From Bacillota bacterium (GTDB lineage Bacteria; Bacillota; Clostridia; Peptostreptococcales; Anaerovoracaceae): a stretch of 43,084 nt of DNA. The stretch is taken from contig JAFWZZ010000026.1 of assembly GCA_017522185.1 (NCBI GenBank), positions 1-43,084 of the forward strand, read 5' to 3'. The notes under the pieces are model-generated. The model worked only from the letters and a program-made list of their open reading frames with translations, searched no databases and was not told the origin of the DNA. Below are positions 2,983 to 41,716 of the stretch, in pieces; position 1 is the stretch's first letter, and every line of letters begins with the position of its first letter. The translations under genes and the position numbers were made by a program.

Positions 2983-4017
2983 TTATCGTTCTACTTCTCG
3001 TTCTGTCTTTTTCTGCACCCTGTCCCTACAATACGAAATCATCTTTGCAAATATCTCATCTTTCGGTTTCGGTCTTTCCTTTGGAAATATATCAACCCAT
3101 TCCCTAATTAATCTGTTCAGTGTTTTCGTGGCCAGCTGCACAATACTGCGATACTGTTCCGGACCATTGCCTGCAGCTACTGACTCTCTAATCGGCTGTA
3201 AAACCATCTGTCTTTTCACCTCTTTTACATGGTCTTCTGACATGATAGTAGCTGCGTAAGATGCATTGTAGTTCCATTTGTGCACCGCCTCATTGTTCTT
3301 TCGGATAACGTCTTCCATCGGGTTATTCTTGCCAATTTTCTTTGTTGCCAGGAAAATACTATCCTTAGGAAATATCTTAAGCTTTCTTCTTTCATCGTAA
3401 ATTTCTTCGTTAATTAGTTCTGTGTACACGGTTTTAAGTTCACGGAGGAAAGCCTTTTTCTTAAAGAAACTATTCTTCTGTCCAAAGTAATGTCCACTAT
3501 ATGGATTACCCTTTGGAATAATATAGCACCCTTTCCGAAGTTCTCCCTGGTCATCTAAAATTTGTTTTTTCGTTCTGCAGTGCTTGCCATTTTCATCGTA
3601 AAACATATTCCTTGTCGCAATCTTCACCTCAGGCTCCGGTAGTTCTTTCCGTTCTGAAAAGATTAAATGAATATGATAATTGGTCTGACTTGTATTGTGA
3701 TGCAGTGCTGCAATACACTCCACGCCATACTTTTCTTTGAAGAAATCAGTAAACTTCTTTAGGATTCGATTTGCGTTTAAGCTAAGATATTCTTCTGGCA
3801 ATGCAATAACCAGTTCCCTTGCTTCGATGCATACACCCTTACTTCCACTCCTTAGAAAGTCTCTCTGATTCTCCTTCGCCAGCTTCGTTCAGAAAGGATC
3901 CTCGCAGGTACTATACACCGCATATAGGAATTCCTGTTTCTGTTCACTGGAAATATAATCTATTCTTCCTGCTACATCATGCAGTTTCGTCATTTGTATG
4001 AATGAATGTCTCGCCAT
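2983..4017 (-). pseudogene. MobA/MobL-family relaxase gene interrupted by one in-frame TGA
   Basis: From an ATG at 4017 the frame reads MARHSFIQMTKLHDVAGRID, a typical relaxase N-terminus. It meets TGA at 3889-3891 (codon 43) and continues in the same frame without another stop to 2983. The interrupted codon follows CEDPF and precedes TKLAKENQ, where I would expect Trp (TGG to TGA). The metal-binding HxH motif (NYHIHLIFSER) lies after the stop. The intact gene would encode about 343 residues. Reinitiation at TTG 3801 would give a 272-residue protein that lacks the N-terminal part. Unless the stop is read through or is a sequencing error, the element has lost its own relaxase. Confidence 0.8.
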
Positions 4018-4021
4018 CTAA

Positions 4022-4110
4022 TCCCCCCTAACTTGCGAAACTGCCCTGGCCCCGCAGGGCGAAATACCCAGCGCATAAATCTATGATTTGTGCATTGGGT
4101 GTATTTCGCT
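4022..4110 (-). other. Probable origin of transfer (oriT)
   Basis: Directly upstream of the relaxase start are a small inverted repeat (GCCCTG 4043-4048 with CAGGGC 4055-4060) and a long imperfect one (4059-4081 with 4085-4109, outer arms GCGAAATAC/GTATTTCGC), next to TAACTTGCGAAACTGC at 4028-4043. Inverted repeats beside a conserved stretch just upstream of the mob gene are the usual layout of MOBQ-type oriT sites. The nick position is not identifiable from sequence alone. Confidence 0.5.
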
Positions 4111-4239
4111 CTCAGGCGCCGAGGGCTTCTTCTGTTTTTCTGGTTAGTTATCGTTCTTTTTCCGTATGACTGTAGTCCTTTCCAAACTGTATTAATTCGG
4201 TGCCTGTTTCGCAGAAAACCCTGCGCTAGCTCAGCTTTT

Positions 4240-4410
4240 TTAAGATAAAACTGCTTCGTCGACTAATTCATCGACCGCAGGTCTTTTTCCCATCCGAAAC
4301 GGCCATATTGGACAGCTTGTAATCGGACATTCTCTTACTTCCCTCATGTTGCCACAACAGCAATCCAGGCATTTTGCCCGAATCGCTTTCAACGGCGTTA
4401 ATACTTTCAT
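4240..4410 (-). CDS. Small cysteine-rich mobile-element protein
   Basis: A product of about 56 residues starting MKVLTPLKAIRAK; the ATG at 4410 is chosen because AAGGTGGTG lies just upstream. A longer frame to 4449 exists but would overlap the previous gene. It has five Cys in CLDCCC and CPITSC, a likely zinc-binding arrangement, followed by WPFRMGKRP. Short proteins of this type are common in integrative elements and phages of Firmicutes; the role is unknown. Confidence 0.7.
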   Translation of the reverse strand: MKVLTPLKAIRAKCLDCCCGNMREVRECPITSCPIWPFRMGKRPAVDELVDEAVLS

Positions 4411-4445
4411 CTCACCACCTTCTTTCTTATCTGTAAACAGAAACG

Positions 4446-4664
4446 TCAACGTTTCTGTAATTCCTGATAAACCTCAAACGCCTTTTGTCTGTGTTCTTCT
4501 GTGCTGCCTGTTTTATGCTCGCTGTACACAATGCGTTTTGCGTGGCACATCATCTTGTCTTCCAGCTCCGTTTTAATCAACGCTTCATCACTATGTTCTT
4601 CGTGGATATGATATCTGCATAGTGCGTTAAACAGCCTTTTGCTTATCAGCACATTCTTTCCCAT
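4446..4664 (-). CDS. Small conserved mobile-element protein
   Basis: Seventy-two mostly charged, helical residues beginning MGKNVLISKRLFNALCRYH. Proteins with this N-terminus are frequent in Clostridia integrative elements and have no established function. It lies between the AAA ATPase gene and the Cys-rich gene on the same strand, so it is probably co-transcribed with both. Confidence 0.65.
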   Translation of the reverse strand: MGKNVLISKRLFNALCRYHIHEEHSDEALIKTELEDKMMCHAKRIVYSEHKTGSTEEHRQKAFEVYQELQKR

Positions 4665-4740
4665 GTCATTAACCTCCCTTCAACATGGCAAGGTGGCAAG
4701 ATGCCCTTCCTTATAAACATAGCCATCTTGCCATCTTGCT

Positions 4741-5706
4741 TTAATCATCCAGTTTCCAATACCATTTATTTTTCTTCTTTATCACAAGGACACCTAAGTT
4801 TTCCTTCGCTTTTCGAAGGGTCTTCTCCTTAATACCTTCCTGGCCCGCCAGATTATAAACTTCTGTAGTCGGAAGCTCACCTTCTTCCAGAATTCCCTTA
4901 AGGAAATCTTCGGCCTCCTTAACCTTACTGACTTTGTAATCCCCTGACATTAGTTCATCAGCTGTAATGTCAATCTCACCGCACCATGCAAAGCCGGCTT
5001 TTTTATCCAGCCGGAATGCAATTGCCTGTGCCTCTGGTGCAAGTGAGTTTTTAATCTGGCACAGGACACGCATTTCAGGCTCATCCTTGATTCTCCCGCA
5101 TACAATAACGCTCCGTGCTGCTGCCGTAATATCAATGGAACCAAGACCACGGTAATTGACTTTACCCATACTGTTCTTGTTCATATGTCCAATCAGAATG
5201 ACTGCACATCCATACTTCTCAGCTAGTACGGAAAGTCTGTGCATAAGCGGTCTGATTTCGTTAGCACGGTGCATGTCCACTCCTGCACCAAGATATCCCT
5301 GCAGTGGATCCAGTACAACCAGTCTTGCCCCTGTCATCTCAATTGCCATTTCGAGCCTATCGTCTGAAATCGTCAGTGCTTCATCACTGTCATCGATAAC
5401 CAGCACCTTAGAACAGTCAGCTCCTGCCGCTACTAATCTCGGCTTTATCGTATCGCCCAAACCATCTTCTGCAGTCTGGTAGATAACGTAGATTGGTTCA
5501 TACTCCTTTTCATCCTCAACAAAAGACAGCGTTTCTCCTTTTGTTAAGCAAGCGATAATATGCAGCATTGCCGTTGTCTTTCCTTCCCCTGGGTCCCCCT
5601 GCAAAATCGTTACTTTTCCAAAAGGGATTAGTGGGTAGAGGAGCCAGTCGACTTCCTCTACCTCCACATCTGCCATATTAATCAGTTTCAATTTGTTTTC
5701 TTCCAT
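4741..5706 (-). CDS. RepA-like AAA ATPase (AAA_25 type)
   Basis: The ATG at 5706 (MEENKLKLINMADV) has AAAGGAG upstream and gives 321 residues. A longer start at 5760 would overlap the excisionase-like gene and is less likely. Walker A is GDPGEGKT at 37-44, and a Walker B-like strand is RLVVLDPLQG. This is the RecA-fold, hexameric-helicase-like family (RepA/RadA-related) found in plasmids and integrative elements, where it is thought to act in element replication. The C-terminal part resembles a winged helix, possibly DNA-binding. It is the second gene of the leftward operon controlled by the XRE repressor region. Confidence 0.85.
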   Translation of the reverse strand: MEENKLKLINMADVEVEEVDWLLYPLIPFGKVTILQGDPGEGKTTAMLHIIACLTKGETLSFVEDEKEYEPIYVIYQTAEDGLGDTIKPRLVAAGADCSKVLVIDDSDEALTISDDRLEMAIEMTGARLVVLDPLQGYLGAGVDMHRANEIRPLMHRLSVLAEKYGCAVILIGHMNKNSMGKVNYRGLGSIDITAAARSVIVCGRIKDEPEMRVLCQIKNSLAPEAQAIAFRLDKKAGFAWCGEIDITADELMSGDYKVSKVKEAEDFLKGILEEGELPTTEVYNLAGQEGIKEKTLRKAKENLGVLVIKKKNKWYWKLDD

Positions 5707-8741: not shown

Positions 8742-9479
8742 TTATACCAGTTCCAGCAGTTCTTCTAAATCGTGGTCGCCTTCGGGAACCTTGTGCTTTT
8801 CCGGTTCCTGTTCAGCCATGATACGGTAGTCTACCATCATGCCTGCGAAGATGTCTGCGCAGGTCGGCGGCGTGAAACTGATGGTGTTGGCACCTGCCGC
8901 GATGGTTTCCCTAATGGTATCGTCGTTCGGTCCGCCGGTTGCGATAATCGGCACCGTCGGGAAGTCCGCACGGATGTGCTTTACCAGTTCTGCCGTCTTT
9001 GCTGCGGCAGATACATTGAGGATGGATACACCGGCACGCAGACGGGCATCGATGTCGGTTTTGTCGCTGACTACGGTGGCGATGACAGGAATGTCGATGA
9101 CCTTTTTGATCAGTGCAATGTTATCGTTCTTCATCGGTGCGTTGACTACGACACCAAATGCGCCGTGGGCCTCTGCATCCTTTGCCATGGTAGCTGTACG
9201 CAGTCCCTGTGTAGTACCACCGCCAACACCGGCCAGCACCGGAATAGATGCGGCGTTAATAATAGACTGGGTGATAATCTGCTGCGGCGTAAACGGATAA
9301 ACTGCCAGCACTGCGTCGGCATTGCAGTTTCGGATAATCGCTATATCAGTGGTAAAGATTGCGGACTTGATACGGCGGCCCATGATAATGATTCCCTTTG
9401 CCTGCCAAATCGGTTCCGGAACCTGTACGCTTTTCTTTCTCAGTTCCCCTGTTACATGCGGAATGTCTCTCATATTCAT
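8742..9479 (-). CDS. TIM-barrel protein of unknown specificity
   Basis: A 245-residue single-domain alpha/beta barrel. The C-terminal phosphate-binding-like loops (PIIATGGPNDDTI, then AGANTISFTPP) resemble those of NanE or ribulose-phosphate-binding barrels. The strand motifs VLAGVGGGTTQGLR and VVVNAPMKN are distinctive, and I recognise the protein only as a conserved barrel annotated as a putative hydrolase in Clostridia. The start at 9479 has GAAGGAGGGG upstream. It is a single-gene unit with its own terminator and no informative neighbours. Confidence 0.7.
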   Translation of the reverse strand: MNMRDIPHVTGELRKKSVQVPEPIWQAKGIIIMGRRIKSAIFTTDIAIIRNCNADAVLAVYPFTPQQIITQSIINAASIPVLAGVGGGTTQGLRTATMAKDAEAHGAFGVVVNAPMKNDNIALIKKVIDIPVIATVVSDKTDIDARLRAGVSILNVSAAAKTAELVKHIRADFPTVPIIATGGPNDDTIRETIAAGANTISFTPPTCADIFAGMMVDYRIMAEQEPEKHKVPEGDHDLEELLELV

Positions 9480-11163: not shown

Positions 11164-11967
11164 ATGAGACTGACAGCGAGAGAAAAAGAGTGGAACCGTA
11201 TGATTCGGGCGGAGAAGGAGTTCCTGGTGAAGGGGGCCAGTAAGAAGGACACCATGCTGAACCAGCTGCTGGCGGAAAAAGTGCCGGACAAACTGCAGGG
11301 GACACTGGATGCGGCCTTCGCAAAGGCCTTTGAGACCATCTTCCAGAAAGGTACCGGCATCATCGAGAAAACATATAAGAAAGAGGAACTGGAGCACCAG
11401 TATCAGGTCAACGCCTTTGCTGCGGACCTGAAGGAAAACAAGAAGACCCTGCGCAAGTTCAGCAAACAGGCGGGGTCGGCCAGCACGAAGAATCTTCTGC
11501 TGACCAGCGTGGAAGGTATCGGCATGGGCGCTTTCGGCGTGGGCCTGCCTGACATTCCCGTCTTCGTCGGCGTGCTTCTGAAAAGCGTCTACGAGGTAGC
11601 CCTCAGCTACGGCTACAACTATGACACGGCGGAAGAGCAGTATTTCATCCTGAAGCTGATCGAGACGGCCCTGTCCCACGGCCAGCCTCTTGTGCGGGGC
11701 AATGCGGCACTGAACCAGTACATCGAATCGCCTGCACTGCCGGAAGACTATGATCTGCCTGCACAGATCGCATCCACCAGCGCAACCATGTCCAAGGAGC
11801 TTCTTTATCTGAAGTTCCTGCAGGGGTTCCCGGTTGTGGGTGCGGTAGGCGGCGCGTATAACACCGTCTATCTCCAGCAGGTGCTCAAATACGCCAAGCT
11901 GAAGTATCAGCGCAGGTTTTTATATGACAAAGCAAACGGCGGCTGGACGCCGGACGATGCGTGTTAA
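11164..11967 (+). CDS. EcsC-family protein
   Basis: The ATG at 11164 (MRLTAREKEWNRM) with GAGGGGGTGA upstream gives 267 residues; a longer frame from 11104 lacks support. The protein matches the EcsC family in layout: a helical N-terminus, a Gly/Ala-rich hydrophobic segment (GIGMGAFGVGLPDIPVFVG, about 119-137) and a conserved Tyr-rich segment (YEVALSYGYNYDTAEEQYF). EcsC accompanies an ABC exporter in Bacillus, but the function of the domain is not settled. Here it stands alone. The following 450 bp hold no gene (see the array at 12014). Confidence 0.85.
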   Translation: MRLTAREKEWNRMIRAEKEFLVKGASKKDTMLNQLLAEKVPDKLQGTLDAAFAKAFETIFQKGTGIIEKTYKKEELEHQYQVNAFAADLKENKKTLRKFSKQAGSASTKNLLLTSVEGIGMGAFGVGLPDIPVFVGVLLKSVYEVALSYGYNYDTAEEQYFILKLIETALSHGQPLVRGNAALNQYIESPALPEDYDLPAQIASTSATMSKELLYLKFLQGFPVVGAVGGAYNTVYLQQVLKYAKLKYQRRFLYDKANGGWTPDDAC

Positions 11968-12013
11968 TCCGCCGGTTTCTGCGATGGCAGAAGCAGTAAC
12001 GCAACGGTATGTG

Positions 12014-12356
12014 CGCAACCATTTTCTATGAAACCGCTCTTGTACTGCACTTTTTTAGAAAAACGCAACCCTAACGCAGTTTTGCATCTATGCACTGCGT
12101 TATTTTTATTATTTAATCCAAATCAACACCGATTTAATTGGTTACACGCAATCTTGAGACATTTTTTATTAGAGAAACTGCAGAGCTATCGGCTGTGACA
12201 TTATTTTAGGGATTCAGACAGCTTGTGGAAAATTAAAATGCCATATAAGCAATTCTCCTCGCGTTCTTCGCGCAGTAGCAACACAAAAGATGAGAATATG
12301 GTTGCGTTTTTTTCCTGAGATGCAGTAACGTCATCAGATATGCACTCATGGTTGCG
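12014..12356. repeat. Phased inverted array 1: four CGCAACC...ACTGC units
   Basis: Two direct units (CGCAACC at 12014 and 12064, each with ACTGC exactly 30 bp further on at 12044 and 12094) face two inverted units (CGCAGT at 12271 and TGCAGT at 12321, each ending 30 bp before the end of GGTTGCG at 12300 and 12350). The period is exactly 50 bp on both arms; the sequence between blocks is AT-rich and not conserved, and the centre spans about 171 bp. An array with the same geometry lies at 13887-14250. It fills the gene-free stretch between the convergent EcsC-like and LUD genes. Confidence 0.85.
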
Positions 12357-12371
12357 CAAACCTTTTTACAA

Positions 12372-12400
12372 GAAAAAAAGAAGGAGCTGGCCGCTCCTTC
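12372..12400 (-). terminator. Terminator of the nuclease-LUD operon
   Basis: GAAGGAGC pairs with GCTCCTTC (12380-12400), and a T-run follows on the minus strand, 17 bp beyond the LUD stop codon. Confidence 0.88.
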
Positions 12401-12417
12401 TCTCAACTTACCCTTTC

Positions 12418-13020
12418 TTAATATCCTAACTCTTCTTTTACCAGTACCACTTCCATGTCGCAGGAACCCATCTTCTTGTAATGAATGACCATGCCGTTAC
12501 AAATACGTTCCGGGCTGTCGCAGTCGTAACACTTGTCTCCTTTGATGGCGCACGGAGTTTTGCGGCCAAGGCGCTTTGCGTTCAGCGGAGATGCGATGTT
12601 TCGCGCCCTATGGATTGCAGACGGCAGATCTTCTGTGATTTTGTTAGTGCCAACCACGAAGTAAACCTTTTCATGTCCGTAGAGAGTAGACGCAACACGA
12701 TTGCCGGTTCCATCGATGTTGACCATTTCGCCGTTTTCGCTGAGGGCGTTGACGGACGTCAGGTAGATGTCCGCTTCTGCAGCCGCTTTGATAACCTCCG
12801 GCATGGCTTTTCCGGATTTTGGCCAGTGCCAGTAGCAGGTATTGTGTGTCGACAGCGTGTCGAAAACCCCCAAGTCCTGCAGTGTTACAGACCCTCCGAA
12901 GCCAACGGACTTGCCGTCAATGGACTGGTTCAGATAGTCAGCTGCCTCTGTGGCAGTGTCAAATAGCGATACCGCGTATCCGTTTTTCTTGAAATTCTCT
13001 ATTGTTTTTTCGATATTCAT
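12418..13020 (-). CDS. LUD-domain protein (LutC/YkgG-like)
   Basis: A 200-residue protein of the LUD (DUF162) family, with the characteristic VGFGGSVTLQDLGVF near residue 40 and DIYLTSVNALSENGEM, DGTGNRVAS and VYFVVGTNKI later. In LutABC and YkgEFG, related proteins take part in lactate oxidation; this stand-alone type has a C-terminal Cys group (CAIKGDKCYDCDSPERIC) that could bind a metal or cluster. No LutA or LutB partner is nearby. The start codon overlaps the stop of the upstream gene as ATGA, with GGAGG inside that gene, so translation is coupled. Confidence 0.88.
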   Translation of the reverse strand: MNIEKTIENFKKNGYAVSLFDTATEAADYLNQSIDGKSVGFGGSVTLQDLGVFDTLSTHNTCYWHWPKSGKAMPEVIKAAAEADIYLTSVNALSENGEMVNIDGTGNRVASTLYGHEKVYFVVGTNKITEDLPSAIHRARNIASPLNAKRLGRKTPCAIKGDKCYDCDSPERICNGMVIHYKKMGSCDMEVVLVKEELGY

Positions 13021-13853
13021 ATAGACCTCCGGGGTAATATCATTCCTTCAAAGTGTGGCAGAATCATTTTCTCGATTATATCATAGATAACCTGACTTTG
13101 ACAATTTCCGTCCGCATCATCCTGGGTAATGATAAGATTATGGCCGATAATAAGTCCATTTGCCTGATATGCCGCAAGCTTCTCAACATTATCTCTTCGA
13201 TATTTTTCTTTATTCAAAAGGCCCCAATGCTCCCAATACAGGTATTTCTCGTGAGGCAGCCGAATCTTAAAGTCGGGATAGATTGGCCGGGAATAGTCTG
13301 GGAAAAACAATTCTTCCTCGTAATGATTCGGGATGCCGTATCCATATAGGGCATTGGCGATGATGGCCTCTCCCTTTGATCTCACGTAATCGCCAAAGGC
13401 GGTACGGTGGGTCAGCCTTTCCGGATAATATGGACATCTTTTGTACGAGGCATTTTGCCAGGCCTTTAGCTCCTGCTGTTCTTTCTCCCTCAAAAGGTCA
13501 TGGTAATTGGCCGGGATTCCTTTTATCAAATCTGAAAGGCTCACTGAAAGATACTGCTTCTGCATTTTCTCTAGTAAAGGTATGTTGTTTTGCAAGCTCC
13601 TAATTGTTTTTTCGGCTAACCTCTTGTCGAGAAGAAGCTTTTGCATTTCATAATCAGACGTTATATTCGTTTGCACCGTCTGCCACCCTCTACCCATACG
13701 CGCTTTGTGCTGGTGGTAATAAGAAATGCTATCCTTTCTTTGTCTTGGAAAAAGAAAGCCTTCCGGAGAAGTATTTAGGATTTGTTGCTGTTCTTCCAGC
13801 ATGTGTTGTTGTTTTAATAGTTCCAATTGAATCATTTTTTGAAAAGCATCCAT
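13017..13853 (-). CDS. PD-(D/E)XK nuclease-like protein
   Basis: A 278-residue protein. The first 130 residues are largely coiled coil (Gln/Glu/Lys-rich). The C-terminal domain carries a motif series typical of a PD-(D/E)XK fold: Glu162 (RSKGEAI), Asp194 in YPDFKI, Glu208 in YWEHWG, and Lys225. This pattern occurs in uncharacterized nuclease-like proteins of gut Firmicutes. I infer a DNA-cleaving or degenerate nuclease fold; the target is unknown. The start has AAAGGAG. It is coupled to the LUD gene by an ATGA overlap, and its upstream region is the phased array at 13887-14250, whose first block lies 34 bp before the start codon. Confidence 0.75.
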   Translation of the reverse strand: MDAFQKMIQLELLKQQHMLEEQQQILNTSPEGFLFPRQRKDSISYYHQHKARMGRGWQTVQTNITSDYEMQKLLLDKRLAEKTIRSLQNNIPLLEKMQKQYLSVSLSDLIKGIPANYHDLLREKEQQELKAWQNASYKRCPYYPERLTHRTAFGDYVRSKGEAIIANALYGYGIPNHYEEELFFPDYSRPIYPDFKIRLPHEKYLYWEHWGLLNKEKYRRDNVEKLAAYQANGLIIGHNLIITQDDADGNCQSQVIYDIIEKMILPHFEGMILPRRSI

Positions 13854-13886
13854 ATTGCTTTACTCCTTTCGTTTATGATTTTTTCA

Positions 13887-14250
13887 CGCAACCTTCTAGT
13901 GTTTTTTTGTCATTCAACTGCGTTCGTTTTAAAAAACGCAACCATTCTTTATTTTTAATGGTTACTACTGCACGACACGACTAAAAAACAACTAAGTGAG
14001 GCGTATGAGACTGGATAAATGGATAAAAACGGTCCTAAATTGGAAATATTATATTTTTATAGAAATAAATGGTAATTTCTACGCTGATATTCTCGCACAT
14101 TTCCAGTGTAAACGCAAGGAATCTGATATAAAATTTAATTATATTTTTCAAAGACTGTAAACTGCGCAGTATCATGCCAAAATCACTTCCCATGGTTGCG
14201 TAATTGTTCTCATGCGCAGTATAATCACAAGATTTCAACATATGGTTGCG
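13887..14250. repeat. Phased inverted array 2: four CGCAACC...ACTGC units
   Basis: CGCAACC at 13887 and 13937 with ACTGC 30 bp on (13917 and 13967), then CGCAGT at 14165 and 14215 with GGTTGCG ending 30 bp later (14194-14200 and 14244-14250). Spacing within each arm is again exactly 50 bp, and the centre is about 192 bp. The inverted copies extend the consensus to CGCAACCAT...TACTGCGC. The array fills the gene-free stretch between the nuclease-like gene start and the end of the MFS gene; 14251-14334 shows nothing I can assign. Confidence 0.85.
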
Positions 14251-14334
14251 CGACTTAGGCAAAGTCACTGTTCGTGTTCACTAAAAAAACGGCCCATGCC
14301 TCAAATGCACGTGCCGCCAATAAACTTCATATAT

Positions 14335-15546
14335 TTAGTTTTTCTTCACCTTATCTACCGTTGCAATCAGAATCAGTGTTCCCACAGCAGTAAATACCGT
14401 CGCAATCAGAGTCAGCATCTTCGCGCCACTAATATCCAGGATGACGCCGCCGATCAAGCTGCCGATGATGGATGCCACCGTCGTCATCATGGTGAAGAAG
14501 GCCTGACCTTTGACAGCCTCACCTTTGCTCATGACCTCATCGATGAACATAACCATGACAGGCAGGAACAGCCCGAAGGAAATCAGCTGGAACAGCTGTG
14601 CGAAGTAGATCATGCCCACGGTTGTCGCAATATAATGGAGCGCAATCTTCACGGTGAATCCCACCGCCGCCACCTTCAACATCAGTTCACAGGAGAACTT
14701 TTTGCGAAGGGATCCTGCGCATATCATCAACGGGATTTCCAGGAAAGCCATGATGGACAGGATTCTGCCCATGTCTTCGCTGTCACCGCCTACATTGCTT
14801 ACGATCTGAATCATATAGTTATTCAGCACCTGGTTGCTGAAGAAAATCCCCAGCACGCCGATGTTCAGCAGAAGGAAAACCTTGTTTCTCTTCAGGAATG
14901 CGATCAGGTTGATCTCTTCTTCCACTTCTTCTTTTACAACATTCCCAGTCTCGGTTTCACCGCCAGCAGCTTTTGCGGCTGCCGCCTTGTCGAACATCTT
15001 CTTCGTTGCGAGGAGGCTGGTCATCAGCATCAGAATGACAACAACGCCACTGACCGGCATGATGCTGACACTGTACGTTTCCACCAGCGTTCCCATAAAT
15101 GCACAAAGAATGGAATATGCCAAAGATCCCATGCTGCGGGCTACGCCGAAGTTAATCTTCAGACCGCTTTCTTCCAGCTTGAAGTTCAAGGAATTGATCA
15201 GAGGCTGCAGGGACGTATGCCATGCCAGCAGCAGCAGGAAGATCACGGACAGTGCCAGTGTCTTCTGCTGGAACACGAACAGGCACGCCATGAACAGCAG
15301 CATGATGATAGTCATAATCTCAATAATTCCTACCAGGGATATTTTCTTGCTTCTGTCTGCAAGGTCTGCAACCATTGGCTGCAGCACCACCGCTACCACG
15401 TTGGCAACTGCCAGAATTACCCCGATTTCGGAATTGGAATATCCTCTCGCCAGCAGGAACACGGATGCAAAGCTGCCAACAACGGCATAAACCATCCAAT
15501 ATGTCGCCTGAATGCCGGCGTAACTAATATTCAAACGTTTCTCCAT
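14335..15546 (-). CDS. MFS transporter (MFS_1-like, LacY/nucleoside symporter type)
   Basis: A 403-residue protein with about 12 membrane segments split by an acidic cytoplasmic loop (about 187-212, Glu-rich). The N-terminus (GIQATYWMVYAVVGSFASVFLLARGYSNSEIG) and ADLADRSKKIS in loop 2-3 suit the MFS_1_like / nucleoside:H+ and oligosaccharide symporter group. The substrate is unknown. The start codon directly follows the TAA of the upstream GPH transporter gene, so the two are one transcription unit. Confidence 0.8.
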   Translation of the reverse strand: MEKRLNISYAGIQATYWMVYAVVGSFASVFLLARGYSNSEIGVILAVANVVAVVLQPMVADLADRSKKISLVGIIEIMTIIMLLFMACLFVFQQKTLALSVIFLLLLAWHTSLQPLINSLNFKLEESGLKINFGVARSMGSLAYSILCAFMGTLVETYSVSIMPVSGVVVILMLMTSLLATKKMFDKAAAAKAAGGETETGNVVKEEVEEEINLIAFLKRNKVFLLLNIGVLGIFFSNQVLNNYMIQIVSNVGGDSEDMGRILSIMAFLEIPLMICAGSLRKKFSCELMLKVAAVGFTVKIALHYIATTVGMIYFAQLFQLISFGLFLPVMVMFIDEVMSKGEAVKGQAFFTMMTTVASIIGSLIGGVILDISGAKMLTLIATVFTAVGTLILIATVDKVKKN

Positions 15547-18339: not shown

Positions 18340-19002
18340 ATGCAATATCTGATATCTTTTTTAGAGGGCATCATTACCTTTATCTCGCCCTGCCTGCTGC
18401 CGATGCTGCCGATTTACATCAGCTATTTCGCCGGAGGCGGCGAACGTGACGTACGGAAGACCCTGCGGTGTGCCTTCGGATTCATTCTGGGATTCACCAT
18501 AGTCTTTATGGCTATGGGAGCCCTTGCGGGATCCTTTGGCAGTTTTGTGATCCGCTATCAGACAGCGGTCAATGTGATCTGCGGAGCCATTGTCGTGCTG
18601 TTCGGCCTCTACTATCTGGGGGTTTTGAAGATCAACCTGTTCCGCGGCAGAAAGCGTGCAGTAGATACCAGCAACCTGAATTTCCTGTCATCCATGGTCT
18701 TCGGCGTGGTCTTTTCCATTGGCTGGACACCGTGTGTGGGTGCTTTCCTGGGCTCTGCCCTGCTGATGGCATCTACCCAGGGGCAGGTACTGACCGGTAT
18801 GTTGATGCTGCTGGCTTATTCGCTGGGGCTGGGGATTCCGTTTCTGATCAGTGCGGTCCTCATCGATCAGCTGAAGGGCGCATTTGACTGGGTAAAGAAG
18901 CATTACGCGGTGATTAACGTTGTATGCGGTGGATTCCTGATTCTAGTCGGCGTGATGATGGCCACAGGGACACTCGGCAGGCTGCTGGCTCTGCTGGGAT
19001 AA
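18340..19002 (+). CDS. ccdA: CcdA / DsbD-like transmembrane thiol-electron carrier
   Basis: A 220-residue protein with six hydrophobic segments and the two CcdA cysteine motifs: Cys18 in SPCLLPMLPIYISY and the second in GWTPCVGAFLGSAL. CcdA passes electrons from cytoplasmic thioredoxin across the membrane to extracytoplasmic thiol proteins. The gene starts 21 bp after trxA and is followed 31 bp on by the TlpA-like gene, so the three form a complete route. Confidence 0.93.
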   Translation: MQYLISFLEGIITFISPCLLPMLPIYISYFAGGGERDVRKTLRCAFGFILGFTIVFMAMGALAGSFGSFVIRYQTAVNVICGAIVVLFGLYYLGVLKINLFRGRKRAVDTSNLNFLSSMVFGVVFSIGWTPCVGAFLGSALLMASTQGQVLTGMLMLLAYSLGLGIPFLISAVLIDQLKGAFDWVKKHYAVINVVCGGFLILVGVMMATGTLGRLLALLG

Positions 19003-40100: not shown

Positions 40101-41716
40101 GCAGCACCTTCGTTCACTGCACGCCTTTCGTTTCGAGCACCGCCTAAGCTCATTAGTCCACCATTGCTGCCATCCAACCAGACGTTATAAGTCTGTGCAG
40201 GTTTTGTGGCTCTTGCAAGGAAAAAGACATTATTACTGCTTGCATTTTCGATGCTCTCAAATTTGCTGTTATCACTCTTTAGTTGTGCATATCTGCTTCC
40301 ATATAAGCTTCTAATTTTCAGCCCGCGTTCTCCGCGACTGTTAGTTCCGGCTTCTTCAAGTCTGGAAGCAGTCTTATCATCTGAGCTTGCATGGGTAACT
40401 GCCGTACTGTAGCCAGAAGGATAGACTCGTCTGTTGTCCGATACATTGAGTATCAGCCACTCTCCACTACCTCCACTAACTTTCCACTTCAGAGCATCCA
40501 GACTTCCTGCCGCAGCATTGGTAGTAACCTGTCCAGTTTCTGAAACAAAAACTTCTACTGCATTTCCCTGATTGTTCATAGCGTAATACCGGCCATCGGA
40601 AGCTTGCATATAGAAAATATATGTATCATTTGTAGAAAAACTATTCGTATAGCTTATAGACTGTCCTAATACATTTGCACCTGCCCTTGGTGCTGTAGCA
40701 AAGAACATTGGCAGCTGACTTTCATTTTCCTGCTCTTCGGGCTCTTCTCCCTGTTCTTCGTCTTGTACCTCCTGCTCCTCAGACTGTTGCTCTTCAAATT
40801 GTTCCGTTTGCTGATCCTCAGTGTTTTTTTCCGTAGAATCTCCATTTTCCTGCTGTTCTTCCAGGCCTACCATTACGTCTTCTATAGCATCTGTGTTAAC
40901 AAGACCATAGCCCAAAATATTGGATTCCTCTGGTGTATAAGCAATGATTTCTACCTTCTGATTTGGCGTATCCCCTTCAATAACATCGATAGAAACTAAA
41001 GTTTTCTCTTCGCGAAGCGTTGCCTTTGTAATAATGCCTACGCGATCCGCATGATTATCCCCTGTTGTTTCCAAAAAGACAATATCGCCTTCTTTTGGTA
41101 TATACTCCAGCCCTGCCTGCTGATACAAACCTGCCTCTTCGTAGGCTCTCTGCATTTCACTACTGCTATCATTTCTTGGGGCATATTCCTCCGCAATCCC
41201 TGCATAATGCAAGCAGAAAGAGACAAACATTGCATCCCAGTTTCCATATGGATTTTCTCTCCATATACCGTATCGGGTCGCTCCTTGAACCAAACCGTCA
41301 TCATTTGTGCGGGTTACCGTATCACTTTCTTTATAATCCAGCTGGCTCTTCGCAACCGCTAACAACTTCTCTAAAGGTGTTCCTGACAAGTCTGCCGGAA
41401 GCGTTGCTTCCCATTCCTCAGCGGTTTCTACAAGAATTTCTTCTGTTTCAAAGCACTGGATTTCATCGTGAAGATGTTCTTCGATGCCACAAATCGGCAC
41501 TTGATTCTCTGTGCTTTCATAACAGCTTTCTATATGCTGGTGTTCTTCCAGTCCACAAATCGGATTTGCTTCACTGGTTATCGCTGGCAATATCAATGCA
41601 TAGGTTGTACAGAATACGACAATTGCCGCTAAAATAATAACTATTCTCTGTCGTTTTTTATCTTTTAGTCTCCGCATTGCAAAAACTTCTGCTTGATATT
41701 GCAACCGTCGTCTCAT
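37175..41716 (-). CDS. Giant pilus tip adhesin (CHAP-like, fibro-slime, Cna-B, LPATG)
   Basis: A 1513-residue protein. In order: membrane/signal segment (about 24-47); two ICGxEEHxH...C repeats (53-65, 75-88), probably metal-binding; a CHAP-like domain (about 115-280) in which the usual catalytic Cys position reads WDAMF (Asp161), with Cys168 and His222 nearby; a Gln/Glu linker; a beta-rich domain (ASDGRYYAMNNQGNAV); an InlB-repeat-like part; a fibro-slime domain (FQFSGDDDVWILIDGNLVLD); a SpaA domain; two Cna-B domains flanking a second beta-rich domain; and LPATG (1472-1476). It is probably the adhesive pilus tip. AGGAGG precedes the start. Confidence 0.9.
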   Translation of the reverse strand: MRRRLQYQAEVFAMRRLKDKKRQRIVIILAAIVVFCTTYALILPAITSEANPICGLEEHQHIESCYESTENQVPICGIEEHLHDEIQCFETEEILVETAEEWEATLPADLSGTPLEKLLAVAKSQLDYKESDTVTRTNDDGLVQGATRYGIWRENPYGNWDAMFVSFCLHYAGIAEEYAPRNDSSSEMQRAYEEAGLYQQAGLEYIPKEGDIVFLETTGDNHADRVGIITKATLREEKTLVSIDVIEGDTPNQKVEIIAYTPEESNILGYGLVNTDAIEDVMVGLEEQQENGDSTEKNTEDQQTEQFEEQQSEEQEVQDEEQGEEPEEQENESQLPMFFATAPRAGANVLGQSISYTNSFSTNDTYIFYMQASDGRYYAMNNQGNAVEVFVSETGQVTTNAAAGSLDALKWKVSGGSGEWLILNVSDNRRVYPSGYSTAVTHASSDDKTASRLEEAGTNSRGERGLKIRSLYGSRYAQLKSDNSKFESIENASSNNVFFLARATKPAQTYNVWLDGSNGGLMSLGGARNERRAVNEGAAFILPTAWDSPSKYDYTLRGWYDVKNGKYYAPGSEVTITEDLVFYADWRATSYDVGVYNVDVADTVSTKDFITTKVFDYGVLFNVMSTDATNVNISDSSHSETWTLRNSGKVKYDNAATLNYIFRDWDGNGRISYPSSTNDQNTSHDDVTSGLHYKELEEILFNTDNSYNPETGEGIIGKEYLGTGDHLFQLMTDPNSEHYGYYYYDSSLNAASYNQKDERFYVYEYLARTSDSANSSGTGVGKYSDFVPLNSPYVNTNGKDVITYKYDGVNSEYVRRDHYTYDAKYNGSGSATNHVATNFWFGMRTDVNFYLPEAPGTRDASGNYGNQDVYGKDMHFQFSGDDDVWILIDGNLVLDIGGIHGVQSGDINFATGVVTVDGKQTGSVSGIDSGEHVLTILYLERGSSQSNCAIYFNLAPRFGLNLQKEDVLTQEALNGAQFTFYRDEACTIPAELWTSKESHNNGDPAISTVTVEKGKATIWGFGAGNTYYIKETKPPDADEYSRPNGIICLSLDKRGVASYSVKIIDEAEQAVSQGFTVHGFRIDEETQQAYIVATNAPEWVEETTSIEVTKKWADNKNHEGEVVTVYLTVTDSDGTVRRLREIQLSEENDWKYVWTNMPKYAEDGVTPIQYGVEEGYTEGYHGTIRRVETVDLKNTHWQDATSLEAGKTYLLKTSSGYLASKGSSINQFEWLDEEEAKSSNLAIWAVSSVNGGMKLTNGAGQSMTYNHSAWSSSNRYIYPMAGTSNNQTIVISEVNGGVRLSYKNGSQYYFTGIKSDGRGSVGTSTGSALTFNPKVMVEESTSVAVENFVYEVTNTPLKDETSLKVYKSWNLGITEATKAIYEQEKVTMKLLANGKDTGRTVTLSLKNNWQDTFRGLPYTDEAGNVIAYTVEESWNTQDWIPSYGEVKIIPGNPDTYEVTVINDYRWGFVHELPATGGTGTYLYTIGGLIMILFAGFGLLYRYQYSMKERRLSK

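Follow-up and report, generated by a model that had tools for sequence, protein, structure and literature searches.

The window analysed here, a 43,084-nucleotide stretch of contig JAFWZZ010000026.1 from the draft Bacillota assembly GCA_017522185.1 in the Anaerovoracaceae, contains two copies of an intergenic array in which two bipartite sites run in one direction, a core follows, and two sites run back in the other (->-> core <-<-). Such arrays form a family of short intergenic elements (~295–365 bp) in several species of one genus. Their box sequences are strongly constrained, their ends are sharp, and sister species of the genus keep the geometry with different words and pitches. We lean slightly toward the view that the arrays are non-autonomous mobile elements, which would be read and mobilised by a trans-acting transposase or recombinase of drifting specificity.

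Architecture of the arrays and their census in the genome

An earlier reading made from the sequence alone (hereafter the sequence-only reading) had described eight units of paired CGCAACC and ACTGC blocks in the intergenic regions on either side of a nuclease-like gene and a LUD gene. We checked these against the letters of the window, and all eight are present at the positions that it gave. Allowing up to two mismatches, CGCAACC-N23-ACTGC matches the window 13 times; in 100 shuffles of the window, the mean was 2.53 matches and the largest number was 6. Each complete array of the genome is a single intergenic element of 343–364 bp containing four 36-bp bipartite sites. In this genome the fuller boxes are CGCAACCAT and TACTGCG, giving a consensus unit of CGCAACCAT-N20-TACTGCG (36 bp). 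The two arrays and their units are as follows.

12014..12356, no strand: element A, four-unit array, 343 bp, between the convergent EcsC and LUD genes
12014..12049, + strand: element A, unit F1, CGCAACCAT-N20-TACTGCA
12064..12099, + strand: element A, unit F2, CGCAACCCT-N20-CACTGCG
12147..12182, + strand: element A, weak extra unit in the core, score 12.4 (best background site of the window 14.4, next 9.9)
12271..12306, - strand: element A, unit R2, CGCAACCAT-N20-TACTGCG
12321..12356, - strand: element A, unit R1, CGCAACCAT-N20-TACTGCA
13887..14250, no strand: element B, four-unit array, 364 bp, between the nuclease-like gene and an MFS gene, both on the - strand
13887..13922, + strand: element B, unit F1, CGCAACCTT-N20-AACTGCG
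13937..13972, + strand: element B, unit F2, CGCAACCAT-N20-TACTGCA
14165..14200, - strand: element B, unit R2, CGCAACCAT-N20-TACTGCG
14215..14250, - strand: element B, unit R1, CGCAACCAT-N20-TACTGCG

The sequence-only reading had held that the sequence between blocks is not conserved. Most of it is indeed free, but unit positions 17–21 are A/T-rich, with T favoured at 19–21 (a logo of 28 units from this genome, approximate because one unit was shifted by a base and four have their boxes spaced at 31 bp), and the spacer separating paired units is A-rich. The difference of about 21 bp between the two core gaps was also correctly noted; the window copies, at 343 and 364 bp, are the length outliers among the seven complete arrays of the genome. 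The placement of all blocks on the same helix face holds only approximately: DNA has a helical repeat of 10.5 bp per turn, so that 50 bp make ~4.76 turns, a quarter turn short.

Across the draft genome (2.12 Mb in 35 contigs), the arrays recur. The exact pattern CGCAACC-N23-ACTGC occurs 23 times, and its reversed control does not occur at all. These units group into eight dispersed arrays on seven contigs. Seven arrays are complete; the eighth, on C13, is a deletion form, and a comparable partial array stands at one end of C12. The complete arrays measure 343, 364, 356, 355, 357, 357 and 356 bp, five of the seven thus falling at 355–357 bp. Both CGCAACC and the 30-bp spacing are exact in 22 of their 28 units; among the others, four have a spacing of 31 bp and three an altered first base, one unit having both. 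A clear fifth unit stands near the middle of arrays C9 and C15, and element A has only the weak one listed above, which scores below the window's best chance site. When three mismatches are allowed, the genome yields 104 matches against 31 for the control; beyond the arrays, the excess consists of scattered single sites. The sequence-only reading had staked itself on the existence of arrays elsewhere in the genome, and six more were found (one being the deletion form). The arrays are not particular to the nuclease–LUD gene pair: the other five complete arrays adjoin unrelated genes.

The same design with other words in sister species

To look beyond this genome, we used a detector for 6-mers of any sequence that recur at a constant pitch and then appear in inverted form within 600 bp. 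It flagged 20 bins in 764.5 kb of sister-species stretches and none in five second-order Markov resamples, several of the bins being other repeats. In three sister genomes (G008, G011 and G004), the unit is CGCACCAT-N20-ATGGTGCG at a pitch of 62–63 bp. Exact units of this form occur in three of 349 genomes of the family (nine in G008, four in G011 and one, from a partial array, in G004), with none for the control; nine arrays were located in G008, eight of them with four units. A fourth sister genome, G009, has the unit GCCATA-N20-TTCAGACG at a pitch of 61–62 bp, with 50 exact units against none in the control. They make up 18 arrays; all have four units once a 21-bp gap between boxes is accepted for a single unit in three of them. 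In length, 13 of the 18 measure 303–306 bp, and the others 294, 312, 315, 334 and 336 bp. G007 holds a looser relative, TTGGGCT-N23-AGCCCAA (29 units, control 0), whose commonest pitch is 53 bp. G004 and G011 carry a second class of array as well, built of TTGTGCA/TGCACAA units of 37–39 bp, so that both classes are present in each. The units of G008, G011, G004 and G007 are dyads of 36–39 bp, whereas in the window's genome and G009 the half-sites are symmetric over only about four bases. The condition that would have refuted the sequence-only reading thus did not hold, for the relatives share the geometry under different words. The 37–39 bp dyad class (TTGTGCA/TGCACAA and TTGGGCT/AGCCCAA, paired units ~53 bp apart) lies at the following places.

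L188, 947–1259
L189, 1492–1813
L172, 8341–8629

No comparable array was found in the ~312 kb sampled from G010 or in most of the 160 kb sampled from G005, in which one small array of pitch 61 (L164) may belong to the family. Two four-unit arrays lie ~4.4 kb apart on one G008 contig (C39, ~40190–40530 and 44915–45264); the two in the window are 1.5 kb apart. The complement of the second box in G009 arrays often contains CCGTCTGAA, which is close to the Neisseria DNA uptake word, a resemblance that we take to be coincidental.

The exact word of the window's genome is confined to that genome as far as it was searched. Its three-block pattern, with up to three mismatches, matched only this one among the 349 family genomes; among 99 genomes including its own, a single unit occurred in eight others, never in 50-bp pairs. 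A scan of 84,980 species genomes, which may omit records near this genome, returned two matches, both inside open reading frames (ORFs; 88 and 343 amino acids) and both lacking an inverted pair; they are chance-like. The pattern had no match in viral contigs, nor did the G008 word, and none of the 19 viral matches to the G009 word was a full unit. A looser pattern found GGTTGCG three times in one direction in a viral contig with no partner box, and we took this as unrelated. One G009 element had no match in plasmids and one G008 element none in phages. Whole-element BLAST from one species matched only two of the 13 genomes of the genus, its own included; as the words differ, the family escapes similarity searches across species. 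A literature search on miniature elements of Clostridia with tandem binding sites, too narrow to claim absence from print, found none.

Constraint on the boxes

Three copies in the window's genome (C5, C20 and C7) are recently related. Between C5 and C20, all 64 box positions are identical and 47 of 292 other positions differ; between C7 and C20, the differences number one in 64 and 58 in 290, respectively. The resemblance of these three extends past the array, since they are bordered by further dispersed repeats. Over their first 175 bp, the other four complete arrays are, outside the boxes, 22–38% (once 44%) similar among themselves and to C5, C20 and C7 (C15 being one base off).

The G009 copies behave likewise. 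Nine of them, aligned over ~305 bp, have a mean pairwise identity of 97.0% in 56 box columns, 62.1% in the 249 other columns and 33.7% in the outer flanks, although these nine were picked by exact matches to the boxes, a choice biased toward intact ones. Five copies first came to light through whole-element BLAST instead of box patterns; compared with the query, they have one difference in 168 box letters and 254 in 865 others. They are less open to that bias, yet local alignment still favours conserved blocks. Four of the five (L232–L235) have four units each, and the fifth (L236) has three.

Ends, empty sites and orientation

A comparison of array flanks in G009 (30 outer flanks) shows the consensus ending ~5 bp beyond the box. 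Two copies are missing from orthologous sites in relatives: the G008 copy C34b from G011, G004 and G002, and the G011 copy C116 from G007 and G005. The exact junctions are not fixable in this diverged intergenic DNA. Because several relatives are without the copy, both sites probably record gain rather than loss.

One locus was seen to be common to G008 and G011, and here the copy has opposite orientations with respect to the flanking gene in the two genomes. The right flank and the outer unit are collinear there (871 bp at 87.6%), and the whole element aligns in reverse at 83.8%. The G008 outer units are of the same type at both ends, so a single crossover falls short of explaining the inversion; two insertions at one place in opposite directions may account for it instead. 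The gene matching the left neighbour of another G008 array, C56 (etfA by eye), is followed in G004 and G011 by arrays of the 53-bp class. We rejected these as empty sites because they are occupied by the other class; their presence suggests a favoured place or a replacement. At three further loci (L155, L159 and L160), the flanks were not pairable between species: the right flank was missing, the two flanks lay on different contigs, or the gap between them was of another size.

Neighbouring genes and the nuclease-like protein

A rough ORF caller placed 12 of 33 arrays between convergent genes, 14 between tandem genes and three between divergent genes, leaving four unclassed; we reclassified element B manually as tandem instead of divergent, since the + strand ORF called there overlaps the MFS gene. 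By the same caller, candidate ORFs of 93–277 amino acids overlap 11 of the 33 arrays. Eighteen of 20 G009 neighbours scanned belong to ordinary Pfam families (e.g., ribosomal protein L17, histidinol dehydrogenase, diaminopimelate epimerase) and two had no match; no recombinase or transposase was among the 20 in Pfam, and none of nine window proteins matched a transposase.

The nuclease-like gene (13017–13853) overlaps LUD by 4 bp in the window. The PD-(D/E)XK label that the sequence-only reading gave its product found no match in Pfam (E <= 0.001) or NCBIfam (E <= 0.1), and the protein is nuclease-like by eye. Its family has matches in all 13 genomes of the genus, one to ten per genome; the window's genome has five, four of them on contigs without arrays. 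That the arrays are the targets of this protein is therefore scarcely credible: the two are adjacent in this window only. A composite element, in which two arrays would carry the LUD–nuclease pair, is also unsupported for LUD: in G011 and G008, the LUD match lies 16–27 bp from the MFS match, as measured from tblastn ends, with no array between by the detector on L108–L111.

Weighing the readings

Short boxes at exact spacing in otherwise free sequence, a pattern that persists across species with changed words, point to a protein that contacts double-stranded DNA at separate places. IS21, too, has two direct sites at each inverted end, and for this reason we favour a trans-acting transposase or recombinase acting on non-autonomous copies. 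The suggestions of the sequence-only reading (sites for a cooperative protein, a layout like that of transposase ends, possibly a miniature mobile element) are all supported. In such a scheme, the reader of each unit would be a transposase or recombinase that binds DNA as an oligomer and whose gene lies elsewhere in the genome; it would use the two separated boxes and a further contact at the A/T-rich middle. It would occupy all four units cooperatively and bring the two ends together, and the resulting complex could copy, move, flip or lose the element. Drift of the protein in each species would then give different boxes with the same unit length and layout. The protein, its chemistry and its role as mobiliser are thus putative.

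Several observations weigh against this reading. We found no target-site duplication in 18 G009 copies, in which matches of three to six bases were no more frequent than in random re-pairings (at the best offset, three perfect 4-base repeats against a mean of 3.8, and a single 7-base match), and none in seven copies from the window's genome plus seven from G008 and G011. No long copy bearing a transposase gene appeared among the unit matches in the window's genome or G009, both drafts, with the other genomes partly examined. Nor was a partner protein found, although no search by recombinase or transposase family was made across the genomes. Each empty site could instead be a loss. The inversion concerns a single locus, with differing left flanks and G008 outer units of one type. 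The strongest point is that the boxes are kept far better than the rest, although the best full-length pair of G009 copies is only 76% alike; such high box conservation without close pairs of copies suggests selection on each copy in place. Finally, two of the four changes (in 120 bp) that separate the broken C13 array from C20 fall within boxes, as fits a need for the whole array.

Selection on each copy in place is what would be expected if the arrays instead served the host. A species-specific architectural protein would bind the four units, wrap or loop ~350 bp, and mark domains or insulate the ends of genes; selection would keep the boxes, and copies would occasionally be duplicated or lost. 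We regard this as unlikely, but as the main alternative. The box letters are kept far beyond the rest of each copy, lengths are nearly constant in the window's genome and G009, promoter-type positions are few (the three divergent arrays), and no transposase lies inside the arrays or was seen beside them, their neighbours having been partly scanned. On the other side, sister species lack two of the copies that were tested, one copy has been turned round in place, the nine G009 copies show the end-to-end homology of copied elements, and a host site has no need of sharp element ends.

Improbable, by our estimate, is a role as res- or six-like switches, in which each end would be a two-subsite site for a serine recombinase of the resolvase/invertase type and the inverted ends would let the core flip. 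The 36–39 bp dyads of G008, G011, G004 and G007 are of the order of resolvase dimer sites, and the inverted copy at one shared locus is compatible with such switches. However, this symmetry shrinks to about four bases in the window's genome and G009, recombination sites alone do not explain dispersed copies with sharp ends, more than a third of the arrays sit between convergent genes, the G009 neighbours scanned include no recombinase, and the full-length alignments of the nine G009 copies are collinear, with no inner inversions seen there. A structured RNA or RNA-level repeat is more doubtful by far, in agreement with the sequence-only reading. Folding energies do fall below those of resampled sequence in seven elements on both strands (z from -0.87 to -4.32; 40 first-order resamples each), a weak signal. 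Yet no Rfam match came near threshold in 11500–14800, where the best score was 22.3 bits and the threshold 58.7; hairpins that the G008 boxes could form are not retained in the window's genome or G009 while the spacing is kept, and that spacing is better suited to a reader of duplex DNA.

Comparison with known systems

The arrays resemble miniature inverted-repeat transposable elements (MITEs), as reviewed in PMC10969869: they are short, dispersed, intergenic and non-autonomous in appearance, too small for a transposase gene, with inverted ends, sharp boundaries and, at two loci, empty orthologous sites in relatives. They differ in that no target duplications were found, nor any autonomous relative in the drafts of the window's genome and G009, and further in ends that consist of two phased bipartite sites, in nearly constant length, and in boxes far better kept than the rest.

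Like ends of the IS21, Mu and Tn7 type, the arrays have several direct repeats per end and ends that are inverted, but they span only ~300–365 bp and hold no transposase gene. According to PMC10122671, an IS21 end carries two direct repeats; every repeat contains a pair of GC-rich boxes with ~10 bases between them, mostly A/T, and integration requires two repeats. In the arrays, the boxes are ~20 bp apart. PMC9943657 describes Tn3 res as three dimer sites in 114 bp and Sin res as two plus a site for a bending protein. The arrays are likewise clusters of sites at defined spacing, comparable to those dimer-binding sites, but they have four, inverted two and two, which are not palindromic in every species, and no resolvase gene was seen beside the arrays examined.

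REPINs, according to PMC3116915 and PMC8049555, are persistent populations of extragenic, non-autonomous inverted-site elements linked to a RAYT transposase gene, and the arrays resemble them in being extragenic, apparently non-autonomous and built of inverted sites. REPs are palindromes of 20–40 bp (PMC3733652); the arrays are 295–365 bp long with four ~36-bp sites, and their hairpins are not kept.

In their manner of working the arrays are like miniature elements whose ends are of the multi-site transposon kind, but, given no target duplication and no known partner, we do not file them as MITEs, IS21 derivatives or res sites. They may be both mobile and useful, a mixed condition that has been modelled for REPINs. 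More specifically, and tentatively, we propose that they could represent a previously undescribed kind of element: a four-site nucleoprotein array that keeps its geometry while sister species exchange its word for another, moved and flipped by a dedicated protein encoded at one place elsewhere, with each copy kept for some chromosomal benefit.

Other repeats near the arrays

A palindromic dispersed repeat of ~165–190 bp has about ten copies at 97–100% identity, plus more diverged ones. It directly adjoins the C5, C7, C13 and C20 arrays, and several contigs end in it; its copies are found at the following places.

C20 (L029, ~4970–5135)
C5 (L092, L094)
C34 (L095)
C19 (L097)
C11 (L101)
C12, at the end (L096)

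A second dispersed repeat, with a palindrome of the CTGACGGGG type, lies to the left of some arrays (L027 ~4084–4360, L096 200–455 and L092 700–795), and the C12 and C13 arrays share the same internal deletion and are joined to it. Set aside as unrelated or unclear were G005 repeats of 89–94 bp period (L165 ~3080–3300, L168 ~4390–4840 and L169 485–705, hairpin-like), TTGACA/TGTCAA inverted pairs at ~82 bp in G008 (L138, ~9193–9340 and 18507–18710), and three detector matches: a duplicated tRNA-like stretch (L136), a G007 tandem repeat (L174) and a G010 TGTAAT match (L182).

Implications

The fixed layout with its changing words offers a natural series in which the specificities of site and protein may change together within one genus. 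Should the arrays be mobile, they would constitute a family of miniature elements with transposome-like ends and no transposase in sight. Should they instead serve the host, they would belong to a chromosome-organising system whose sites relocate.

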